Assembly: GCF_009811555.1 (NCBI RefSeq)
Contig: NZ_BLIN01000005.1
Span: forward strand, 1,373,501 to 1,437,500
Direction: 5' to 3'
Length of the DNA stretch: 64,000 nucleotides
Source of the DNA: Streptomyces caniferus
GTDB taxonomy: Bacteria; Actinomycetota; Actinomycetes; Streptomycetales; Streptomycetaceae
How positions within the stretch are numbered: position 1 is the first letter of the stretch; each line of letters starts with the position of its first letter. The position numbers and the translations under genes are program-made. Below, piece by piece: positions 3,269 to 55,365 of the stretch. Below the pieces are notes generated by a model. It was not told the origin of the DNA and ran no database searches. It worked only from the letters and a program-made list of their open reading frames with translations.

Positions 3269-4300
3269 GTGGGGACCCCGCTGACCCCCGCAGGAACCGG
3301 AGCGGCCTCCGACGCCCGGCCGGGCCCTCCGGGCTCGCCGGATCCTCTCCGGACGGTGGCCGAGCAGTTCGTCGGCCTGGTGGAGAGCGGCGCTCTGGAT
3401 CTTCCCCGGCCCGGTTCCGGGAGGACGGGCGAGCGGTTCCGTGAGCTGAAGGACCTCGCGCGCCGGGACCTGTGCCTGGCCCGATTGGCCGAAGGGCATG
3501 TCGACGCCCTGGCCATCCTGGAAGAGCTGGGCGGGCCGACGGTGTATCCGGGCGAACGGTGGGGGGTGTGGGCGGCTCACCCGCCCGGCCCGGCCTTGCA
3601 GGCGGTCAGCGGCGGAGCCGACTGGCGGGTCAGGGGCGTCAAGCAGTACTGCTCCGGGGCGCGGATCTGCACCCACGCCCTGGTGACGGCCGACACCGGC
3701 CAAGGGCGGCGCCTGTTCGCCGTCCACCTCGCCGACCGGGGCGTCGCGGCGGTGCCGGGCACCTGGAAGGCCGTCGGGATGGCGGCCAGCGACACCCTCG
3801 ACGTCGCCTTCCACGACGTCCCGGCGGAACCGGTCGGTGAGGTGGACGGCTATGTGCAGCGACCTGGCTTCCAGCACGGCGGCGTCGGGGTCGCGGCGTG
3901 CTGGCTGGGCGGGGCACAGGCCGTCGCCGACACCCTCCTGGACGAGGCCGGGAAGCATCCGCTCGACGAGCATGCCGCCGCGCACCTGGGTCAGGTGGAC
4001 GTCCTGCTGCATGCGGCCGAGGTGGTGCTCGACCGCGCGGCGGAGGAGATCGACGACGACGCCCTGGACCGCCGTGGCGGGGCCCGGGTGCGCGGTCTTC
4101 GGGTGCGGGCCCTCGTGGAGAAGGTCTGCACGGAGGTCCTGCACCACGTCGGCAGGGCCACCGGAGCCGGCCCGCTGTGCCGGGACGCCGCCCATGCCCG
4201 AGCCGTGGCCGACCTCACGGTCTATCTGCGACAGCATCACGCGGAACGCAGCGACGCGGAGCTGGGCGGTCTGCTGGCGTACGGCGGAGGGGCGAAGTGA
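3269..4300 (+). CDS. Acyl-CoA dehydrogenase family protein
   Basis: First gene of a four-gene overlapping operon. GTG at 3269 is chosen because GAGAGGAG lies directly upstream and the frame before it has no protein-like composition, giving 343 residues. The middle part shows the flavoprotein beta-domain pattern (WRVRGVKQYCSGA and TWKAVGMAASDTLDVAFHDV). The C-terminal half is helical with an RGLRVRALVEKVCTEVLHHV stretch typical of the last domain. It is a little shorter than catabolic acyl-CoA dehydrogenases (about 380). In this conserved gene set the substrate is unknown; oxidation of an acyl or sugar-linked intermediate is an inference. Its stop overlaps the next start (GTGA). Confidence 0.82.
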   Translation: MGTPLTPAGTGAASDARPGPPGSPDPLRTVAEQFVGLVESGALDLPRPGSGRTGERFRELKDLARRDLCLARLAEGHVDALAILEELGGPTVYPGERWGVWAAHPPGPALQAVSGGADWRVRGVKQYCSGARICTHALVTADTGQGRRLFAVHLADRGVAAVPGTWKAVGMAASDTLDVAFHDVPAEPVGEVDGYVQRPGFQHGGVGVAACWLGGAQAVADTLLDEAGKHPLDEHAAAHLGQVDVLLHAAEVVLDRAAEEIDDDALDRRGGARVRGLRVRALVEKVCTEVLHHVGRATGAGPLCRDAAHARAVADLTVYLRQHHAERSDAELGGLLAYGGGAK

Positions 4301-52205: not shown

Positions 52206-53567
52206 ATGTCTGACAGCACGCTCGCACAAACCGTCGCCGCCCTGCAGCCGCGCGCCAGGACCGAGCTGGCCGAGCTGGTGGCCTTCAAGTCCGTGGCGGA
52301 TCCGGCCCAGTTCCCCAAGAGCGAGTGCGAGGCGGCGACCGAATGGGTCGCCGGGGCACTGCGGGGGGACGGTTTCCAGGACGTGGCGCTGCTGGACACC
52401 CCGGACGGCACCCAGTCCGTGTACGGCTTCCTGCCCGGCCCGGCAGGCGCCCCGACGGTGCTGCTGTACGCGCACTACGACGTGCAGCCGCCGCTGGACG
52501 AGGCCGCCTGGATCTCCCCGCCGTTCGAGCTGACCGAGCGCGACGGCCGCTGGTACGGCCGCGGCGCCGCCGACTGCAAGGGCGGCCTGATCATGCACCT
52601 GACGGCGCTGCGGGCGCTGCGGGAGCACGGCGGTGTGCCGGTCAACGTCAAGGTGATCGTGGAGGGTTCGGAGGAACAGGGCACCGGCGGCCTGGAGCGC
52701 TACGCCGAGGCGCACCCCGAGCTGCTGACCGCCGACGCCATCGTGATCGGCGACACCGGCAACTTCCGGGTCGGTCTGCCGACGGTGACCGCGACGCTGC
52801 GCGGCATGACGCTCGTACGGGTGCAGGTCGACACCCTGGAGGGCAATCTGCACTCCGGCCAGTTCGGCGGCGCGGCCCCCGACGCGCTGGCGGCGCTGAT
52901 CCGGATCCTGGACTCGCTGCGCGCCGAGGACGGTTCGACCACGGTGAACGGGCTGGCCGCGGACGCCTCCTGGGAGGGCCTGGAGTACGCGGAGGAGGAC
53001 TTCCGCAAGGACGCCAAGGTGCTCGACGGCGTCGGCCTGGTGGGCAGCGGTTCGATCGCGGACCGGGTCTGGGCGCGTCCGGCCGTCACGGTGCTCGGCA
53101 TCGACTGCCCGCCGGTGATCGGCGCCACCCCGTCCGTACAGGCCGGCGCGCGGGCACTGGTGAGCCTGCGGGTGCCGCCGGGCACCGACGCCCTCGAAGC
53201 CACGAAGCTGCTGACCGCACACCTGGAGAGCGCCGCCCCCTGGGGTGCGCGGGTCGCGGTCGAACAGGTCGGACAGGGCCAGGCGTTCCGCGCGGACACC
53301 GACAGCCCGGCGTACGCCTCGATGGCGGCGGCGCTGCGCGAGGCGTACGACGGCGAGGAGATGCAGATCGCCGGCATGGGCGGCTCGATCCCCCTGTGCA
53401 ACACGTTGGCCGGGCTCTACCCGGACGCGGAGATGCTGCTGATCGGCCTGAGCGAGCCGGAGGCCCAGATCCACGCGGTCAACGAAAGCGTTTCGCCGCG
53501 GGAACTGGAGCGGCTGTCTCTGGCGGAGGCGTTGTTCCTCCGTCGGTTTGCGGCTAGCGGTAGCTAG
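52206..53567 (+). CDS. M20 family metallopeptidase (dipeptidase)
   Basis: 453 residues; ATG at 52206 with AAGGAG upstream. Zinc ligands and catalytic residues are seen: His90 and Asp92 (LLYAHYDVQPP), Asp123 (GAADCKGG), Glu156-Glu157 (EGSEEQG), an Asp in GDTGNF, and a late His in QIHAVNESV. A dimerisation domain lies between them (about 195-300). It cleaves small peptides; exact substrate unknown. Its stop lies directly beside the large inverted element, so transcription probably reads into it. Confidence 0.93.
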   Translation: MSDSTLAQTVAALQPRARTELAELVAFKSVADPAQFPKSECEAATEWVAGALRGDGFQDVALLDTPDGTQSVYGFLPGPAGAPTVLLYAHYDVQPPLDEAAWISPPFELTERDGRWYGRGAADCKGGLIMHLTALRALREHGGVPVNVKVIVEGSEEQGTGGLERYAEAHPELLTADAIVIGDTGNFRVGLPTVTATLRGMTLVRVQVDTLEGNLHSGQFGGAAPDALAALIRILDSLRAEDGSTTVNGLAADASWEGLEYAEEDFRKDAKVLDGVGLVGSGSIADRVWARPAVTVLGIDCPPVIGATPSVQAGARALVSLRVPPGTDALEATKLLTAHLESAAPWGARVAVEQVGQGQAFRADTDSPAYASMAAALREAYDGEEMQIAGMGGSIPLCNTLAGLYPDAEMLLIGLSEPEAQIHAVNESVSPRELERLSLAEALFLRRFAASGS

Positions 53568-53783
53568 TCGTTTCCCACGTTTTTGTCTTTTCCGCCGTGG
53601 TGGTTTGTCGCCGTTGCCCGCCCGCTGCGCGGTGCGCCCGCCGTTTCGCCTGGCGGCGGGCCGGTCCGGTGCGCTTTGCCTGTCCGCTGCGCTTTGCCTG
53701 TCCCGTCGTGGTGGTTGTTCGCCGTTGCGCCTGCGGCGGGCGGGGTCCGCTGCGCGGGGCTGTGGGTGCGGTGACGGACCTGC

Positions 53784-53832
53784 GGGGCCTGGTGTGTGGA
53801 CTGCTGCGCTTTACGTCCACACACCAGGCCCC
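53784..53832. repeat. Left hairpin of the inverted element
   Basis: A perfect 18-bp stem (53784-53801 with 53815-53832, GGGGCCTGGTGTGTGGAC and complement) closes a 13-nt loop, TGCTGCGCTTTAC. Read on the minus strand the loop is GTAAAGCGCAGCA. Confidence 0.9.
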
Positions 53833-53986
53833 TCCGGCCCGCCCCCTCCCGTGGGGGAAGTGAGTGAAGGCCGGTGGGGGCGGGCCGCCGATAGCTGTTT
53901 CGGTAAGACCCGCGAGGCGCACCGGACCACCCACCTGCAGCCCCACCACCGTTTTCCCTACCACCCACGGGAGGGGACGGGTCGGA

Positions 53987-54039
53987 GCGGGTGGGGGTGT
54001 CCGGACGTAAAGCGAAGCAGTCCGGACACCCCCACCCGC
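53987..54039. repeat. Right hairpin of the inverted element
   Basis: A perfect 20-bp stem (53987-54006 with 54020-54039) closes a 13-nt loop, GTAAAGCGAAGCA, differing from the left loop (minus strand) at one position. The loop core GCGAAGC is the well-known stable DNA mini-hairpin sequence. Confidence 0.9.
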
Positions 54040-54311
54040 GCAGACCCGTCACCGCACCCCGACAGCCCCGCGCAGCGGACCCGGCCCGCCGCAGGCGCAA
54101 CGACGGGCGCACCGCGTCAGCGGGCGACAAACGGCGAGCAACCACTACGGCGGCAAAGCCAAAAACGAGGCGCGGCAAAGCGCAGCGGACGGGCCCGCCG
54201 CAGGCGCAACAGCGGAAAAGCCAAAAACGAGCCGAGGCAAAGCGCAGCGAAAGGGCAACGACGGGCGTACCGCGTAGCGGGCGATGAACGGCGAAAAACC
54301 ACCACGGCGCG

Positions 54312-54340
54312 AAAGACAAAAACGTGGGGCTCACCCCACG
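54312..54340 (-). terminator. Intrinsic terminator of the kinase-Nudix gene
   Basis: CGTGGGG (54323-54329), CTCA loop and CCCCACG (54334-54340) form a 7-bp hairpin whose loop contains the gene's stop codon. On the minus strand it is followed by TTTTTGTCTTT, a rare true T-tract in this DNA. The downstream half is part of the inverted element. Confidence 0.75.
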
Positions 54341-55365
54341 GGCACACCGGCCTCAAGGTGAAGCGGACACCCCCGCTCCCGGGCGCGAAGCGCCCACCGC
54401 AGGCGGTTCCAGCGGACCGGCGGCAGCATCGTCTCGGCCTCGGCCTCGGTGGCGAAACGCCACCCCCGCAACTCCGCGCCGGGCAGCAGAAGCTTGCTGA
54501 TGCGGTCGTCGGTCAGGGTGCCGCCGTCGTAGAGCAGGCGCAGGCCGCCGAAGCCGGGTGGTTTGGGGGCTTCCCAGTCCAGGACCAGCAGCCGGGGGGC
54601 TCGGGGGAGCTCGATGCCCAGTTCCTCGGCGACCTCCCGTACGCCGGCATGGGCGGGCGCCTCGCCGGGTTCGACGATGCCGCCGGGGAATTCCCAGCCG
54701 GCCTTGTAGGTCGGGTCGACGAGCAGCACCCGGTCCTGGTCGTCGAAGAGGAGTACGCCGGACGCGAGCGTCTCGGCGGTCGGTTCGGGGGTCTGCACGA
54801 TGTCGCAGGCGCCGGCGCCGGTGCGGACGGCCTCGGCGACGCGTTCGGCGGTCTGCCGGGGGGTGAGCCGGGTGGTGTCGACGACGTGGGCGTCGCCCTG
54901 GAGCCAGGGCAGTGCGTCGGCGTACGGGCCCAGGTGTTCCAGGCTCCAGCGGCGCGTCGACGCGGTGGCCTCGGCGTCCCCCGACACGTCCTCCCGCTCC
55001 GCTATTCGGGCTCGAAGGATCGTTTCCTCCGCGTGCAGCAGGACGTGCCGTACGGGGATCCGGCGGGCTGCCAGGGCGCCGAAGATCTCGTCGCGGTACT
55101 CCTGACGCAGCAGCGTCATCGGCGTGACCAGCGGACCCGGCACCTCGGTGAGCAGCGCCGCGGCGGTGTCCACGACCATCCGGCGCCAGGCCGGCAGGTC
55201 CTGGTAGTCGTCGATCTCCTCGAACCGCTTGGCCGGCAGCATCAACCGCAGTCCGCTGCCGAGGAGTTCGGGGTCGTAGAGCGTGCTTCCGGGAAGCAGG
55301 TCGAGCAATTCATGAGCCGTAGTGGTCTTGCCCGCACCGAACGTGCCGTTCAGCCAGACGATCAC
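54331..55365 (-). CDS. ATP-binding kinase-like domain fused to a Nudix hydrolase
   Basis: 344 residues from GTG 55365, with GAGGGG upstream. The N-terminal P-loop domain has Walker A GTFGAGKTT (7-15) followed by an AAA/zeta-toxin or chloramphenicol-phosphotransferase-like fold (about 1-190). The Nudix box is at 228-250 (GGIVEPGEAPAHAGVREVAEE, then LG). Both active sites look intact. The fusion suggests a kinase plus house-cleaning of nucleoside diphosphates on one chain. The gene ends in an intrinsic terminator inside the inverted element. Confidence 0.87.
   Translation of the reverse strand: MIVWLNGTFGAGKTTTAHELLDLLPGSTLYDPELLGSGLRLMLPAKRFEEIDDYQDLPAWRRMVVDTAAALLTEVPGPLVTPMTLLRQEYRDEIFGALAARRIPVRHVLLHAEETILRARIAEREDVSGDAEATASTRRWSLEHLGPYADALPWLQGDAHVVDTTRLTPRQTAERVAEAVRTGAGACDIVQTPEPTAETLASGVLLFDDQDRVLLVDPTYKAGWEFPGGIVEPGEAPAHAGVREVAEELGIELPRAPRLLVLDWEAPKPPGFGGLRLLYDGGTLTDDRISKLLLPGAELRGWRFATEAEAETMLPPVRWNRLRWALRARERGCPLHLEAGVPVG

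Follow-up and report, generated by a model that had tools for sequence, protein, structure and literature searches.

BIMEs are intergenic mosaics of inverted hairpin modules located at the ends of genes. REP units are described as 20–40 bp long and either carry a GTAG tag and are tied to RAYT transposases, or carry a CGTC tag and lack a dedicated transposase (PMC3733652). Gene conversion has been proposed for their evolution, as indicated by a title ending in '...evolution by gene conversion?' in the reference list of PMC4681348. In Streptomyces, sheared G:A pairs close the GCA loops of telomere palindromes II and III, which have been likened to the 'rabbit ears' of parvoviruses (PMC4513846).

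An element with likeness to these systems was found in the 64,000-nucleotide stretch of the Streptomyces caniferus genome (G000) analyzed here, referred to as the window. It is a palindrome with inverted arms at positions 53574-54328 and fills nearly all of the space between two convergent genes. Its parts and neighbors are:

52206..53567, plus strand: left flanking gene, peptidase family M20 (Pfam), with its TAG stop 6 nt before the element
53574..54328, no strand: whole palindromic mosaic element, with a 39/42 terminal match and dispersed copies in its own genome
53574..53782, plus strand: left outer arm of repeated modules, with a CCCACGTTTTTG... end and the words CGCTGCGCTTTGCC and GCGCCTGCGGCGGGC; boundary to the hairpin approximate
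53784..53832, plus strand: left hairpin, allele CCACACACCAGGCCCC, 18 pairs in the fold
53800-53816, minus strand: left-hairpin loop motif, reading ACGTAAAGCGCAGCAGT, with a C(GCA)G loop
53839..53855, plus strand: left half of the core stem (CTCCCGTGGG side), from inverted repeat and fold
53856..53963, no strand: core spacer, very variable, with a glyoxalase-like gene there in the relative G080
53964..53980, plus strand: right half of the core stem (CCCACGGGAGG side), from inverted repeat and fold
53984..54039, plus strand: right hairpin, allele CCGGACACCCCCACCC, 20 pairs in the fold
54005-54021, plus strand: right-hairpin loop motif, reading ACGTAAAGCGAAGCAGT, with a C(GAA)G loop
54040..54328, minus strand: right outer arm, ending ...CAAAAACGTGGG; boundary approximate
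54331..55365, minus strand: right flanking gene, AAA_33 and NUDIX (Pfam), with its TGA stop 2 nt after 54328

The original prediction had placed the element at 53574..54329; its left end was correct and its right end is 54328. The inversion it described for the outer arms was confirmed, as 39 of 42 positions agree between 53574-53615 and the inverted copy of 54287-54328. Over the whole element the best inverted match of this length reaches 40, compared with a maximum of 33 and a mean of 27.7 in 200 first-order Markov control sequences. Pairing of the arms extends inward for 72 nt at 88% and then through further blocks whose order is kept in both arms, and the inner portions of the arms are hairpins. 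Folded as a single strand with DNA parameters, the element reaches -354 kcal/mol, whereas 20 shuffled versions averaged -207 (z -17.2). The predicted fold is a four-armed cloverleaf consisting of an outer stem, the left hairpin, a core stem and the right hairpin; the outer stem comprises 178 base pairs from arm to arm, with some small side loops, and ends in the four-way junction. Repeat analysis and fold thus bear out the earlier description of arms that share words in the same order and carry hairpins toward the center. In line with the proposed lack of coding potential, none of the long open frames that cross the element passed the codon-position filter. A scan of positions 53000-55000 against Rfam gave 27 matches at E≤1, none of which reached the gathering score, and matches to microRNA families were rejected as spurious hairpins.

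A BLASTN search of the 9.15 Mb host genome returned 117 matching pieces, which were merged by hand to about 31 sites including the one in the window; this list may be incomplete as 40 of 192 candidates were scored, and among the 31, L046, with a weak match of 43 nt, could be a chance hit and L045 is a short form. Full copies span about 480–760 bp, have CCCACGTTTTTG-type ends and contain the same modules in the same order as the window element. The earlier expectation of repeated copies was therefore correct, with arms and hairpins conserved among the copies, and in some relatives the orthologous intergenic region is short and lacks the element. Allowing up to three mismatches, this genome contains 50 occurrences of the loop motif GACGTAAAGCGAAGCAGTC and one of the reversed control. 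Four sites (L041-L044) belong to a second element type, which has the loop hairpins in common with the first but differs in its arms and contains a separate inverted repeat, AAAAACCAGAAGCTCGGCC...GGCCGAGCTTCTGGTTTTT, in its core. A different short palindrome of the CTCCCCCACTGCC...AAGGGCGTGGGGGAG type is located at L045:4063-4145 and also at L306 and L309 of G106, inside element parts or replacing them, and is apparently another small Streptomyces repeat.

The exact motif GACGTAAAGCGAAGCAGTC was present in 15 of the 392 Streptomyces genomes searched, one of them G000, and its control in none of the genomes listed; counts per genome range from none to dozens. Among named genome contigs at least 120 stretches contain the exact motif, 119 of those listed being from Streptomyces and one not. 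With the whole element as DNA query, 9 of 41 relatives matched, including its own genome; matches outside G000 were pieces of 26–65 bases with E-values of 8e-7 or worse, and two of these genomes belong to other genera. A covariance model of the hairpin half reached E≤1e-5 in 9 of 150 genomes of the genus, several of them weakly. In the set covering the order it matched 6 of 99 genomes, all of the same genus, whereas the 15 from other genera gave no match. As judged from these searches, no relative outside Streptomyces showed the whole layout. In the plasmid collection a single record, a 2.8 Mb Streptomyces replicon, harbors eight places. The suggestion that the element might be a packaging site was not supported, since phage records gave no match to the window element and viral contigs none to the exact loop motif.

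Two further observations concern the loop motif. On the minus strand of a metagenome-assembled Acidothermaceae contig (L197, locus about 3866-3884) the exact motif sits atop a different stem; this hairpin lies just past a predicted gene, and the element arms are absent in the 60 bases inspected on each side. In draft genomes the motif is often located within 60 bases of a contig end, as in the 14 loci checked (L110, L117, L119, L132, L145, L146, L149, L152, L156, L160, L161, L165, L166 and L170). This indicates that the repeats break assemblies, so that copy numbers in drafts may be underestimates.

Most sites are old. For 24 of the 31 sites in G000, flanking sequence could be matched, in collinear order, to a G080 locus that bears an element: both flanks to a single locus at 22 sites, only the left flank at L028 and only the right flank at L043. 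The comparison resolved all sites but L030, L042, L044 and L046. Among the 20 regions fetched from G406, 16 of the 31 sites match with both flanks. The elements occupying these shared sites nevertheless group by species and not by site. In a tree of 17 two-hairpin elements from G000 and 16 from G080 the species are separated by a 99/97 branch. Two of the G080 rows sit on long branches, and support is weak for 17 of the 30 inner branches. Twelve of the 13 named orthologous pairs were comparable, and in 11 of them 10 to 16 of the 16 G000 paralogues were closer than the orthologue (identities exclude gap columns). The exception is the window element, for which pairwise identity puts the G080 orthologue ahead of 15 of the 16 paralogues. 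All 38 two-hairpin elements examined have two unlike hairpin stems, and each of the two species has its own common stem on one side: the right-hairpin allele CCGGACACCCCCACCC occurs in 17 of 17 type-1 pairs of G000, and CCGGAAACCCCCACCC is carried by 9 of the 12 listed G080 elements, the other three lacking the common allele. Grouping by species at old shared sites indicates concerted evolution. The comparisons thus show that the copies mostly stay at fixed orthologous sites and are homogenized within species. Of 20 elements compared for their outer arms, including two from G080, all but L029 could be used, and likeness was 0.855 within an element and 0.858 between elements. As the outer arms are no closer within than between elements, they are shuffled among copies and not corrected in place; self-correction of the palindrome within an element was accordingly rejected for the outer arms.

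The intergenic region between the M20 and NUDIX genes was followed through the best 30 of 384 genomes, read by eye. Twelve of the 30 contain the element or a clear remnant: G000, G364, G310, G106, G382, G153, G210, G327, G080, G281 (at a contig end), G207 and G191 (arm end only). It is absent from the remaining 18, where the gaps measure 18 to 1016 bp. G310 harbors a single-hairpin form of 272 bp. In G080 the core contains an intact glyoxalase-like reading frame (PF18029, L271:3169-3534, minus strand), which indicates that cores can hold cargo. The loop differs at four of the 12 occupied sites (G106, G382, G153 and G210), where it reads GGACG(A/G)AGTCC or something closely related. With up to two mismatches allowed, this second loop, CGCAGGACGAAGTCCGGAG, gave 93 matches in G106 and 35 in G153; it is present in 12 of 17 genomes examined (a single match each in G365 and G191), and the reversed control matched once in six of the 17 and not in the rest. 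In exact form (A or G) it occurs in 4 of 150 genomes of the genus. The two loops share the form C(GNA)G (GAA, GCA or GGA), and d(GCGAAGC) and GNA loops are described as extraordinarily stable, nuclease-resistant DNA mini-hairpins (PMC4686876). In G052 (C1:2661187-2661790) the second motif is repeated four times on one strand at a spacing of about 195 bp, which suggests a tandem array. A replichore polarity, considered because loop motifs of G080 had appeared on one strand, was rejected as the full list includes inverted pairs.

The coding sequences next to the elements were also more divergent. Synonymous differences were counted among codons for the same residue in gap-free matches of at least 70% identity, comparing genes that end within 30 nt of an element with controls, genes from these loci whose ends lie more than 300 nt from it. 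Over the final 20 codons 143 of 398 differed synonymously between G000 and G080, versus 112 of 856 in controls (p 2e-19), and between G000 and G406 the values were 71 of 251 versus 58 of 624 (p 9e-12). This shows for two species pairs that element-adjacent codons diverge about three times faster synonymously than control gene ends. For the last 10 codons, codons 10-19, 20-49 and 50+ from the end, respectively, the fractions near elements were 0.42, 0.31, 0.23 and 0.18 for G080 (25 genes) and 0.34, 0.23, 0.25 and 0.17 for G406 (15 genes), compared with 0.15, 0.12, 0.13 and 0.15 (48 genes) and 0.09, 0.09, 0.12 and 0.11 (35 genes) in the respective controls. Most of the excess is thus located within about 150 bp of the element, with a smaller excess beyond. 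Amino acid differences in the last 10 codons were 0.15 near elements versus 0.08 in controls for G080 and 0.12 versus 0.06 for G406. In G000, gene ends within 45 nt of an element also contain more T-ending codons among the last five (27/180 versus 63/1210 in controls) and more TAG stops (18/36 versus 47/242). The 11 gene ends located more than 45 nt away showed 5.5% T in the last five codons and 20% in codons 5-10 (55 codons). This codon signature is not general across element-bearing genomes: 23 element-adjacent gene ends of G106 and G153 had TAG stops in 3 of 23 and T-ending codons in 11 of 115 cases. Deamination of C to T on the coding strand was rejected as the sole cause, as it cannot alone explain a change from TGA to TAG.

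The elements are best read as lineage-specific, dispersed, non-coding mosaic DNA palindromes of Streptomyces at the 3' ends of genes. We give about even chances to the explanation that this BIME-like family consists of fragile sites which are repaired with frequent copying between elements; that a palindrome is broken and repaired at all is inferred from comparative data. The hairpins would be cut in vivo by a nuclease of the SbcCD type, and the break would be repaired by recombination with another copy, so that new hairpin alleles spread, arms are shuffled and the family is homogenized. Error-prone synthesis or resection would scar the adjacent coding ends, and purifying selection on the proteins would stop the scarring at the stop codons and leave the element flush with them. 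A benefit to the host, if any, would be secondary, such as the separation of convergent transcripts. Homologues of SbcD were present in all three genomes tested (G000, G080 and G106). Cutting of hairpins and recombination at palindromes are established in E. coli, where SbcCD and RecA control an interrupted palindrome of 246 bp (PMC3315005). In yeast inverted repeats raise mutation nearby, around breaks (PMC3681665), an effect that spans at least 8 kb, whereas the increase seen here is mostly confined to about 150 bp. Several further points argue against fragile sites. Strong palindromes are usually unstable, but these long palindromes persist at fixed sites; in addition, the window element itself is an exception to concerted evolution, three of the 12 listed G080 elements lack the common allele, the outer arms are not explained by simple self-correction, and the codon signature is not general.

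A more far-reaching version, possible but tentative, regards the element as a DNA-only 'drive' element, a telomere-like rabbit-ear palindrome without an enzyme of its own that would spread its alleles by being breakable. Host hairpin nucleases would cut it and host recombination would copy family members in, so that hairpin and loop dialects shift together while the sites remain fixed, and the mutations in flanking codons would be the price.

A function at the RNA level, as a bidirectional terminator or 3'-end stabilizer between convergent genes that is selected through RNA hairpins, is rather doubtful. It is suggested by the placement of the elements. According to codon-bias gene calls, not annotation, all 31 sites in G000 are internal with genes on both sides, 17 of them between convergent genes, 13 between genes of the same direction and one called divergent (L025, where the call of the right gene is 1.7 kb off). 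As a baseline 46 of 229 adjacent pairs are convergent (binomial p 2e-5 for 17/31), and stable stem-loops favored convergent intergenic regions in every bacterium included in one survey (PMC1590033). Many sites directly follow stop codons, the BLAST-defined element starting within 10 nt of the stop of the incoming gene at 19 of 31. In G106 and G153, 16 of 20 loci were resolved, as 8 convergent, 7 same-direction and 1 divergent, and the elements are often not flush. The stems, however, argue for another level of pairing. In an alignment of 34 sequences 17 of 27 predicted pairs changed on both sides, and 88 distinct 14-bp stems contain 93.9% Watson-Crick pairs, 1.6% G.T and 4.5% other mismatches; selection on RNA would tolerate G.U, which here is rarer than the other mismatches. 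Paired changes together with rare G.T point to pairing at the DNA level. Termination would also need far less than some 750 nt of structure, and neither the species-wide homogenization nor the gradient in the flanks would be explained. By eye, a copy in G106 (L308) lies beyond an ordinary terminator-like hairpin. Where the original prediction left the choice between a structured RNA and a structured DNA element, the DNA version thus fits better.

Movement as a non-autonomous, MITE-like element by some enzyme, with a strong site preference, is unlikely. Terminal inverted repeats and many copies speak for it, and occupied or empty sites and motif counts from none to dozens differ between relatives. 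However, the sites are largely fixed and collinear between species (24 of 31), and no target duplication was seen by eye in the flanks of the copies inspected; a classic MITE is therefore not supported. The orthologous G080 stretches of L033, L040 and L045 are present without the motif, and the clearest filled and empty pair is the G080 element L270, which spans from stop codon to stop codon (532 bp between stops), and its G000 orthologue L263, which has an unrelated 157 bp intergenic region instead; these differences may reflect gain or loss. Here the whole intergenic region was exchanged and not interrupted, which leaves no clean empty site, and to the right the final three residues agree but their codons differ (TAC CGC TAC TGA in G000, TAT CGT TAT TAG in G080). 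No coding copy was found in a search of 25 genomes for the transposase family PF01797 (RAYT/Y1), and we know of no parent transposon. PF01797 was present in three of the 25 (G210, G235 and G382) and absent from G000, G080, G406, G364, G207, G310, G281, G191, G327, G153 and G106. G210 and G382 have PF01797 but fewer copies of the element (14 and 6 second-loop matches), and the absence of PF01797 from the highest-copy genomes tested, among them G000, G080, G106, G153 and G406, does not support a RAYT-driven REP.

That the elements are hotspots of recombination with diverged strains, their flanks carrying imported alleles and not new mutations, would give raised divergence decaying with distance but is improbable, because imported Streptomyces DNA should keep normal codon use and the enrichment of T-ending codons and TAG at G000 junctions argues against import of normal alleles, an argument limited to G000 as TAG is not enriched in G106 and G153.

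If breakage and repair with copying between elements is the correct explanation, these genomes would contain dozens of natural long palindromes that are tolerated in evolution. The fragility of bacterial palindromes, ectopic gene conversion and repair-associated mutagenesis could then be read from comparative data and tested by deletion. Dispersed non-coding repeats would have a mechanism of homogenization that requires no transposase, and the unusual accumulation of rare codons together with TAG stops that marks certain gene ends of G000 would be accounted for. The literature consulted on intergenic and palindromic repeats of Streptomyces, their mechanism and loops gave no account of this family; most subscription journals were outside its scope, which makes this weak evidence.

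Compared with known systems, the family shares with MITEs the terminal inverted repeats, the dispersed copies and the absence of a detected gene inside, but differs in its mostly fixed old sites, its concerted evolution and the lack of target duplications visible by eye. With the 'rabbit ears' of Streptomyces telomeres (palindromes I-IV) it shares two neighboring hairpins with GCA-type loops between mutually pairing segments (PMC4513846). In contrast to telomeres, the elements are internal, occur in dozens of copies and have longer stems, and none of the 31 G000 sites is at a replicon end; the kinship is a resemblance. The nearest known kind is the REP/BIME class. Like its members the elements are dispersed, intergenic and near the 3' ends of genes, forming a BIME-like mosaic of inverted hairpin modules with arms shuffled between copies. 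They are set apart by size, fold and loops: instead of a 20–40 bp palindrome with a GTAG or CGTC tag, full copies have CCCACGTTTTTG-type ends, a length of about 480–760 bp, a cloverleaf layout and C(GNA)G loops.
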